Assembly (NCBI GenBank): GCA_947304405.1
Contig: CAMZBB010000010.1
Coordinates: forward strand, 1 to 45,349
DNA: 45,349 bases
Source of the DNA: an uncultured Clostridia bacterium
Lineage (GTDB): Bacteria > Bacillota > Clostridia > Saccharofermentanales > Saccharofermentanaceae
Direction of reading: 5' to 3'
A program made the translations under genes and the position numbers. How positions within the stretch are numbered: position 1 is the first letter of the stretch; each line of letters starts with the position of its first letter. The notes beneath the pieces were generated by a model that saw nothing but the letters and a program-made list of their open reading frames with translations, made no database searches and was not told the DNA's origin. Below are positions 15,718 to 39,355 of the stretch, in pieces.

Positions 15718-15864
15718 GTTCGTCCCGCCCGAACTGCCGCCGACAAGGCTTCCCCGCGGCGCACGCATGAAATCCGCTTACTGCTGCTTCCTTCCGGACC
15801 TGACAGGGTTCACGGTTCAGCGTCGCACGGGACCCTGACCGGCAGCAGACCGGACGGGACGAAC
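15718..15864 (-). ncRNA. ffs: Signal recognition particle RNA (4.5S/small SRP type)
   Basis: The minus strand carries the invariant SRP core: GTCAGGTCCGGAAGGAAGCA at about 15791-15810. 5' and 3' flanks pair over a long terminal stem (GTTCGTCCCG at the 5' end with CGGGACGAAC at the 3' end, continuing through CTGCTGCC and GGCGGCAG). It is a hairpin RNA of the small bacterial type without an obvious Alu domain. The 5' end is placed 7 nt after the -10 element. SRP RNA directly upstream of dnaX is the arrangement seen in Bacillus. The exact ends are inferred from the pairing. Confidence 0.92.
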
Positions 15865-30653: not shown

Positions 30654-31567
30654 CGGACAATCCTTATTTTGTTAAAGGCATGCCGGAAGATGTTTCCATG
30701 GATCACATCGTCAGGGGAGAAGCCCTCGGCGGTCTGGTCAAGTGCTCTGCGATAAGGACGACCGCCGCCTGCGAAAAGGCAAGAGTTCTCCATGATACGT
30801 CAGCGTCGGCAACTGCCGCGCTGGGACGTTTCATTACGGGTTCGCTCCTCATTTCCGAATCGATGAAGAGACCGACTGACACCCAGACGACGATCATCAG
30901 AGGTGATGGTCCGTTAGGAGGCATGACCTGTGTAACCGATTACGGCTTCAAGTGCCGTGCATATCCTGTGGAGAACAACGTACCGACCGAGTATCACAAG
31001 CCCGGCAAGATCAATGTCGGAGCAGCTGTCGGCAGGGGAACGCTCACTGTCGTCAGAGATCTTGGCCTGAAGGATCCTTATGTGGGTTCTGTTGAGCTTA
31101 TCAGCGGAGAGATAGCCGAGGATTTTGCATGCTATCTTCTCAAGTCCGAGCAGGTTCCGTCGATCGTAGCGCTCGGCGTTCTGCTTGAAGGAGGCAGGGT
31201 CGTTCATGCAGGCGGATTCATGGCCCAGCTCCTGCCGGGTGCCGGAGAAGATGAGATCTCCTATCTTGAGAATAGGGCAGCGGGTTTTCCCGAGGTGTCA
31301 TTCCTGCTGTCGGAGGGATTTACTCCCGCGCAGATCATGGATCTGTTCATGGGCGATCCCGATCTTAAATATCTGGATGCGGCTCCCGTGTCGTTCGAGT
31401 GCACCTGCAGCAGGGAACGCATGAGCGCGGGACTGGCCGCACTGTCCAAAACAGACCTCGAAGATCTTATCAGGGACGGCAAACCGGTGGAGACCTGCTG
31501 CCGTTTCTGCAACAAAAAATACGTTTTCGGGACCGAAGAACTGGCTGATTTTCTTAAAAATCGGTAA
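30650..31567 (+). CDS. hslO: Redox-regulated chaperone Hsp33
   Basis: A 305-residue Hsp33. The N-terminal domain has the typical RGEALGGLVKCSAIRTTAA region and GSLLISESMK. The C-terminal redox switch has CTC and CCRFC: a CxC plus CxxC zinc centre, with an extra cysteine next to the second pair. Oxidation releases zinc and activates the holdase in the cytoplasm. It is the last gene of the ftsEX transcript. Confidence 0.95.
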   Translation: MTDNPYFVKGMPEDVSMDHIVRGEALGGLVKCSAIRTTAACEKARVLHDTSASATAALGRFITGSLLISESMKRPTDTQTTIIRGDGPLGGMTCVTDYGFKCRAYPVENNVPTEYHKPGKINVGAAVGRGTLTVVRDLGLKDPYVGSVELISGEIAEDFACYLLKSEQVPSIVALGVLLEGGRVVHAGGFMAQLLPGAGEDEISYLENRAAGFPEVSFLLSEGFTPAQIMDLFMGDPDLKYLDAAPVSFECTCSRERMSAGLAALSKTDLEDLIRDGKPVETCCRFCNKKYVFGTEELADFLKNR

Positions 31568-31614
31568 AAAGCCGCTTTTCGATCACAAAATTTTACAAAA
31601 TCACAAAAAAACTC

Positions 31615-31643
31615 TTGAAAATATGGAATACGCGGAGTAGAAT
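31615..31643 (+). promoter_or_regulatory. Promoter of the S10-spc ribosomal protein operon
   Basis: TTGAAA (31615-31620), 17-bp spacer, TAGAAT (31638-31643). The predicted start near 31650 gives a leader of about 300 nt before rpsJ. Confidence 0.78.
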
Positions 31644-31649
31644 ACTTTT

Positions 31650-31940
31650 CGCTGCGCTCTATGGGCGACCATGGCTGCGCGCAAAAAGGCTTTGATAACG
31701 GAGATTGCCGCGAACGGCGCCACGGCTGCGCGGACGGATCGCGGGTAACTTCGAAGGAGCCGATGGCAGAGCAAAGATCATCTGCCGGTCTCATGCCTTG
31801 AAGGCAGGACGAAAAGGGTATTGCAGACACTTGCCCAGAGTCCCAAAGTGCTGTCGTTCGACGGTAACTGGTTAACTGGGTTTTTGAATGGAGTACGAGG
31901 AAACGCCCGACAAGGTTGAGAAAAGAAATACAGCTTTTAT
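31650..31940 (+). promoter_or_regulatory. Structured 5' leader of the S10 operon
   Basis: About 290 nt, clearly richer in GC than the flanking promoter and without a credible ORF. Pairings I can see include CCGCG/CGCGG around 31710, GGCAGA with TCTGCC around 31760-31790, TGCCT/AGGCA around 31795-31807 and CACTT/AAGTG around 31830-31852. The string GGCTGCGCG occurs twice (around 31675 and 31725). A long leader here suggests autoregulation by a ribosomal protein, as L4 does in E. coli, but no known class was recognised. Confidence 0.55.
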
Positions 31941-31956
31941 AAGGAGGCCAAACACA

Positions 31957-32274
31957 ATGGCAACAAAGAAGATCATGATCAGAATCAGACTCAAGGCTTA
32001 CGACCATAAGATCCTTGACGACAGCGCAAAGCTCATCGTTGACGTACTCTCACGCGACAATGCAAGCTTCGCAGGCCCGATCCCGCTCCCTACAGAGAAG
32101 GAGATCGTTACGATTCTGCGTTCACCCCACGTAAACAAGGATTCCCGTGAGCAGTTCGAGCAGAGAACACACAAGAGGATCATCGATGTTTACACACCGT
32201 CTTCCCAGGTCATGGAAGATTTAGGAAAGCTTGACATGCCCGCAGGCGTCTCTATTGAGATCAAACAGAAATAA
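31957..32274 (+). CDS. rpsJ: 30S ribosomal protein S10 (uS10)
   Basis: 105 residues with [14 protein letters not shown], the [23 protein letters not shown] stretch and RIIDVYTPS. The ATG at 31957 follows AAGGAGG by 9 bp; a longer in-frame extension to 31888 is rejected. First gene of the cluster. It also acts as the NusE antitermination factor. Confidence 0.97.
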
Positions 32275-32397
32275 GACTAAGCGGGTCTGAATACCGGAAC
32301 GCATCGTAATGCCAAGCTGTGCGTCCCGGGGTCATGTTCGCCAAGAAGGATTCAAGGTCCGGCGAACCAATAACCTGAAGAGGAGGAAAAGAAATTT
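32275..32397 (+). promoter_or_regulatory. Structured intergenic RNA between rpsJ and rplC
   Basis: 123 nt, long for this operon, where most gaps are under 25 bp. Stem 1 pairs CCGG and ACGCA (32294-32303) with TGCGT and CCGG (32320-32329), with one mismatch. Stem 2 pairs GTTCGCC (32336-32342) with GGCGAAC (32361-32367), enclosing a short GGA/TCC helix. The rplC ribosome binding site (AGGAGG) follows. Not a terminator, as there is no T run. Candidate ribosomal-protein binding site or processing site. Confidence 0.6.
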
Positions 32398-33030
32398 ATG
32401 ACGAAATTCATTATTGGCAGAAAGTCAGGAATGACGCAGCTGTTCGACGAGAACGGTAACGTAATCCCCGCAACCGTTATCGAGTGCGAGCCTATGTACG
32501 TGCTCCAGAACAAGACGGTTGAGACTGACGGTTACACAGCATGCAAGGTAGGTACCGGTTCGGTACGCGCCAAGCTTGTCAACAAGCCGGATGCAGGACA
32601 GTTCAAGAAGGCTGACGTGGAGGTCAAGAGGATCATCCGCGAGTTCACACCTGATCAGGAGTACAGCCTCGGCCAGGAGATCAAGGTCTCTGACATGTTC
32701 GCTGTTGGCGACAAGGTCGACGTAAGCGGTACATCCAAGGGTAAGGGCTTCCAGGGCAACATCAAGAGACATGGACAGAAGGGTGGTCCTTCAGGCCACG
32801 GTTCCATGTATCACAGAAGAGTCGGTTCCATGGGCGCTACATCTACACCGGGCCGCGTTGTTCCCGGAAAGAAGATGCCTGGACATATGGGCGCAGTTAA
32901 CTGCACAGTCCAGAACCTTAGTGTCGTAATGGTAGACGGTGAGAGGGGAATCCTCGTAATCAGAGGCGCAATCCCCGGACCCAAGGGCGGAATCGTTACG
33001 GTTAAGAATACCGTAAAGGCCGCTGAATAA
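32398..33030 (+). CDS. rplC: 50S ribosomal protein L3 (uL3)
   Basis: 210 residues, usual length. It begins MTKFIIGRKSGMTQLFDE and contains the conserved GTSKGKGFQGNIKRH and GSMGATSTPGRVVPGKKMPGHM loops that reach the peptidyl transferase region. Confidence 0.97.
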   Translation: MTKFIIGRKSGMTQLFDENGNVIPATVIECEPMYVLQNKTVETDGYTACKVGTGSVRAKLVNKPDAGQFKKADVEVKRIIREFTPDQEYSLGQEIKVSDMFAVGDKVDVSGTSKGKGFQGNIKRHGQKGGPSGHGSMYHRRVGSMGATSTPGRVVPGKKMPGHMGAVNCTVQNLSVVMVDGERGILVIRGAIPGPKGGIVTVKNTVKAAE

Positions 33031-39265: not shown

Positions 39266-39355
39266 CACTTAGGCACTATACAACTCTGAAAAGCACTGAT
39301 TGCGGCGACATACCGCAGTCAGGGGCACAATCTTAAGAGCAGGAGGAAAACATAT
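39266..39355 (+). promoter_or_regulatory. Intergenic hairpin between rpsH and rplF
   Basis: A 90-nt gap containing a 10-bp stem (39296-39305 with 39313-39322, one G-U pair) and a 7-nt loop CGACATA. There is no T tract, so it is not an intrinsic terminator. AGGAGG for rplF lies downstream. A ribosomal-protein binding site or processing hairpin is possible. Confidence 0.55.

Follow-up and report, generated by a model that had tools for sequence, protein, structure and literature searches.

The window, as the whole analysed stretch of 45,349 nucleotides is called here, originates from a rumen Clostridia bacterium and contains a ribosomal-protein operon in which rpsJ (encoding S10; 31957..32274, plus strand) is followed by rplC (encoding L3; 32398..33030, plus strand). 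The end of rpsJ at 32274 and the start of rplC at 32398 confirm the 123-nt gap that the initial annotation had pointed out. The accompanying remark that most gaps of this operon are shorter than 25 bp is broadly correct, since the genes are mostly separated by 0–24 nt or overlap, with the exceptions of the rpsN–rpsH (54 nt) and rpsH–rplF (90 nt) gaps. A search for intrinsic terminators, i.e., G+C-rich hairpins followed by a U run, found 0 sites in the region 31560–32420, in agreement with the earlier observation that the gap has no T tract and is not a terminator; no promoter-like site was found in the rpsJ–rplC gap either.

The two stems reported earlier are present in the gap. The first one belongs to a hairpin designated P1 (32294..32329, plus strand; arms 32294–32304 and 32319–32329), where CCGG (32294–32297) pairs with CCGG (32326–32329) and ACGCA (32299–32303) with UGCGU (32320–32324); the terminal loop contains GCCAAG, the GCCAA portion of which is kept within the genus. 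The second stem forms the inner hairpin P2 (32336..32367, plus strand), consisting of the arms GUUCGCC (32336–32342) and GGCGAAC (32361–32367) and a variable cap, and indicated by both folding and covariation. The most conserved parts of the element, overlooked by the initial annotation, are an outer GGU/ACC helix and a CAU/CAAUA internal loop. The 5′ arm of the outer helix, GGU (32330..32332, plus strand), pairs with the 3′ arm, ACC (32373..32375, plus strand), a pairing supported by covariation, as relatives contain the compensatory forms UGU/ACA, GCU/AGC and AGU/ACU. On its 5′ side, the internal loop reads CAU (32333..32335, plus strand) and includes the invariant A 32334, which is able to pair with U 32371 of the 3′ side, CAAUA (32368..32372, plus strand); the two forms of the element described below both keep C 32368 and U 32371 without exception. 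Altogether, the core (32330–32375) reads GGU-CAU-[GUUCGCC...GGCGAAC]-CAAUA-ACC and comprises a 3-bp outer helix, an asymmetric internal loop and an inner stem; P1 is stacked just 5′ of it, and the rplC Shine–Dalgarno (SD) sequence AGGAGG (32381..32386, plus strand), as read from the sequence, lies 5 nt past it, unpaired in the predicted core fold.

The single-sequence fold of the whole gap is modestly better than chance (z −1.64), and the fold of P1 with the core (32293–32376) is better than that of the whole gap (z −3.29); the element can be placed far above chance because relatives show invariant loop bases and repeated compensatory changes. A pseudoknot between GGCUU, located 5′ of P1, and GCC/AAGCC in the P1 loop looked suggestive by eye and was rejected as unsupported by covariation in the genus.

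Loci carrying rplC were gathered at the genus and family levels and from named Clostridia genomes, including Saccharofermentans MAGs. The genus members examined have the same core in the gap, with a variable inner stem; the core is about 45 nt long (32–49 nt among the aligned relatives), and 15 of its columns are invariant among 62 diverse sequences. In this form of the core, designated form A, 94.9% of the pair cells are standard, and the covariation score is 0.201, compared to 0.060 for shuffled alignments and no more than 0.043 when the partners are slid. Parsimony mapping of substitutions on a tree of the S10 and L3 proteins from 131 loci indicated that, among 224 cross-arm column pairs, the five ranked as most significant all belong to the predicted base pairs, an outcome to be read as a ranking and not as an exact test, since the P value assumes branch-independent substitutions. 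These five pairs have undergone 16, 10, 4, 6 and 2 independent compensatory changes; the inner P2 pairs show 4, 16, 10 and 6, and two further predicted pairs have one such change each on the same tree. Conserved secondary structure accompanied by compensatory changes, by which ribosomal-protein leaders are recognised, is a property of the element. The initial annotation had held that free variation of the gap without covariation would speak against a functional structure; this was checked in relatives, and the element withstood the comparison.

For P1, sequences of 64 congeners were aligned with MAFFT without fitting to the structure; column pairs 30–61 and 31–59 have six compensatory changes each, pair 26–65 has three and pair 28–63 has two. 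P1 is shorter or missing in some distant relatives (L079, L080 and L100), where the core persists; it is thus real in the genus and yet accessory, because distant members retain the core alone.

A covariance model of the form A core (R1) matched 135 of 393 Clostridia genomes (130 of the 382 of good quality, representing 69 of 219 genera), with about one copy per genome. The inspected form A loci, 70 in number, comprised the best 30 and 40 picked among weaker matches, and 69 of them sit in the rpsJ–rplC gap directly before rplC; the exception, a near-threshold match in genome G123, is antisense to another gene and was classified as a false positive.

A second form, form B (CUAGGAUGAUUGC...GCAAUCCGCUGUAG), occupies this site before rplC in Lachnospiraceae, Eubacteriaceae, Caloramator and others, and it covaries strongly (score 0.515 vs. 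0.181), on a par with form A. The corresponding covariance model (R2) matched 50 of the 382 good-quality Clostridia genomes, and all 30 loci examined precede rplC. Forms A and B were found together in one genome, G181, while 17 such genomes would be expected by chance; even G181 was dismissed as a carrier of both forms, its form B match being located on a contig other than that of rplC and hence spurious. Seventeen genomes without a model match were judged by eye: seven contain clear form A, two contain form B, two contain intermediates (L275, GGUUACGUUC...GAACCUCUGACC; L278, GGUUAAGUUGA...UCAACCGCUGACC), L279 is an uncertain case, and the remaining five are without the element, their gaps being 11–40 nt long and, in one case, 90 nt. 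If these 17 genomes, a small and non-random sample, are typical, most Clostridia carry the element; it is nevertheless dispensable, because some Clostridia, with short gaps, do without it (L273, L274, L280 and L281), a point against the regulatory model given below.

In a joint alignment of the two forms, which shows the form B outer helix shifted by a single base, an A-U pair, the first G-C pair and a C in the 3′ loop are invariant, and 99.3% of the pair cells are standard. Because of these shared pairs and the shared C, we read forms A and B as one superfamily, with an internal loop that can be written as N-A-H against C-N-N-U-R. As a separate observation, the Lachnospiraceae genome RUG14166 (L113) has two tandem form B hairpins in one 146-nt rpsJ–rplC gap.

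In a phylum-wide draw of 299 genomes, R1 and R2 matched solely members of the class Clostridia, with no match in the roughly 288 genomes from the other classes; no match was found in the plasmid collection. The distance between the helix and the SD sequence is short in both forms (median 4 nt, 10–90% range 1–5, for form A; median 6 nt, range 4–9, for form B), while the rpsJ–rplC gap in relatives can be anywhere between about 45 and 270 nt long; the element is tied to rplC initiation and not to the end of rpsJ. The element consistently adjoins a ribosomal-protein gene in the mRNA orientation (69/70 form A and 30/30 form B loci), which is a further feature used to recognise ribosomal-protein leaders. 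The earlier proposal of a structured, non-terminator element within the operon is supported by its broad conservation, by the compensatory changes and by its constant position beside the ribosome-binding site of rplC.

Judging from the sequence comparisons, the gap probably contains an undescribed binding site for a ribosomal protein in a cis-acting mRNA element that would repress rplC, its probable direct target as the first gene 3′ of the gap, together with the downstream genes; L3 would be the most likely ligand and L4 the next. Under this model, L3 or, with lower likelihood, L4, present in excess over rRNA, would bind the internal loop and deny the 30S subunit access to the rplC start; the output of L3 would fall, L4, L23, L2 and the rest would follow via translational coupling across the short downstream gaps, and S10 would be left under its own leader upstream of rpsJ. 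The SD sequence being unpaired in the predicted fold weighs against the model in so far as blocking would need the bound protein. In E. coli, rplC and rpsJ are translationally coupled (PMC12548453); a gap of the size found here would break simple coupling of this kind and leave room for separate control. Translational control separate from that of S10, with L3, L4 or another product as the ligand, had been suggested by the initial annotation, and it appears to be a plausible and the best-placed explanation. L3, encoded by the nearest gene, and L4, the regulator of the S10 operon in E. coli (PMC10931766), are the leading ligand candidates.

We know of no bacterial mRNA element that responds to L3. 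When a Clostridia 23S rRNA and the E. coli 23S and 16S rRNAs were scanned by sequence and by two-strand patterns, with no curated rRNA structure, the matches were chance-like only, and no convincing rRNA counterpart emerged that would name the ligand, which counts against the model; an H94-like match, AUCCGUUGUGG, was dropped, as the partner strand in the scan disagrees with the known H94 pairing. Ribosomal-protein leaders that do not mimic rRNA exist, however (PMC7247131). A bolder suggestion, offered tentatively, is that one undescribed RNA superfamily, located before rplC in most Clostridia and comprising two main forms linked by intermediates, binds L3 itself and thereby divides the S10 operon into two parts under separate control.

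Perhaps the hairpin could instead be recognised by an endonuclease or a non-ribosomal RNA-binding protein, being a processing or stability site that separates the rpsJ mRNA from the rest and leads to unequal amounts of S10 and L3. The wording of the initial annotation permitted such a function, and the location between two cistrons and the lack of a T tract are compatible with it, but the placement is fixed relative to the rplC SD sequence (median 4 nt) rather than the rpsJ stop, and the internal loop contains invariant bases, as expected of a specific binding site, which makes this explanation unlikely. A ligand-free translation enhancer or standby structure, holding the rplC start open and separating rplC from rpsJ, is slightly less probable still; it would agree with the SD sequence being free just outside the helix and with a gap too long for simple stop–start coupling, but a pure spacer would need neither invariant loop bases nor an A-U pair and a C shared by two otherwise divergent forms. 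A small upstream ORF or leader peptide in the conserved stretch, readable in the window from ATG 32309 to a stop overlapping the rplC start, is highly improbable, as this ATG is replaced by ACG or TTG in close relatives, the gap length shifts out of frame among relatives and many sequences have ACG or AAG in place of the AUG of the core.

Other RNAs were also observed in the window. In the rpsH–rplF gap (39266–39355), there is another structured element that is conserved; it has the form CUCUGAAAAGC-(variable stem)-AAUCUUAAGAG and abuts the rplF SD sequence; it is present in 15 of the 15 family genomes examined (gap 71–133 nt), its exact pattern was matched in three more genomes of the family and order (G059, G139 and G475), and it has no Rfam family match. 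It might act as an L6 or S8 leader. In addition, a bacterial small SRP RNA (RF00169, 71.3 bits) is encoded at 15739–15839 on the minus strand.

The Rfam search of the rpsJ–rplC gap, which had been proposed in the initial annotation, found no family that describes the element; using Rfam 15, no family matched the gap even at an E-value of 10, apart from a chance match of the GlsR26 snoRNA on the opposite strand (20 bits vs. a cut-off of 100). The S10-Clostridia leader (RF03136, gathering score 35.1 bits) likewise has no match in the gap even at an E-value of 10. A divergent, sub-threshold copy of this leader was found upstream of rpsJ (31684–31788, plus strand; 26.8 bits vs. the cut-off of 35.1), and congeners L024 and L052 contain RF03136 above the cut-off. 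RF03136 upstream of rpsJ co-occurs with the element before rplC in 101 of 134 genomes with form A and in 32 of 50 genomes with form B. In the openly accessible leader-discovery literature (main texts, including PMC7247131, PMC11109978, PMC2965389, PMC6429828 and PMC10931766), no leader between rpsJ and rplC was found; the leaders described there are located upstream of rpsJ, apart from an L4 leader that precedes rplC in archaea.

Few ribosomal-protein operons are as well known as the S10 operon, whose control is commonly attributed to one leader located 5′ of rpsJ; the conservation of an additional element ahead of rplC in Clostridia points to a further control site within the operon. The element is a candidate for a new family in RNA databases, currently missed in well over a hundred sampled genomes, and its compact core offers a testable RNA for L3 and L4.

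Several known systems bear comparison with the element. The S10-Clostridia leader RF03136 is also a structured RNA in a ribosomal-protein mRNA of the same operon and bacterial class, but it lies in the 5′ UTR of rpsJ and has another consensus and fold, whereas the element described here is located 3′ of rpsJ, beside the rplC start. The L4 leader of Archaeoglobi, a candidate leader reported by Eckert and Weinberg in 2020 (PMC7247131), shares the position directly before rplC, followed by rplD and rplW; according to its published description, it is archaeal and rplC is listed as the first gene regulated, and no Rfam family describing a leader of this kind matched the gap at E-values up to 10. 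The S8 site at an internal cistron of the E. coli spc operon provides a functional analogy only, involving a different protein, operon and RNA (PMC10931766). In the E. coli S10 leader, controlled by L4, a ribosomal protein of the operon likewise acts on the S10-operon mRNA, but its site belongs to the long 5′ UTR that precedes rpsJ and causes attenuation as well, whereas the element of Clostridia is internal and has no terminator (PMC10931766).
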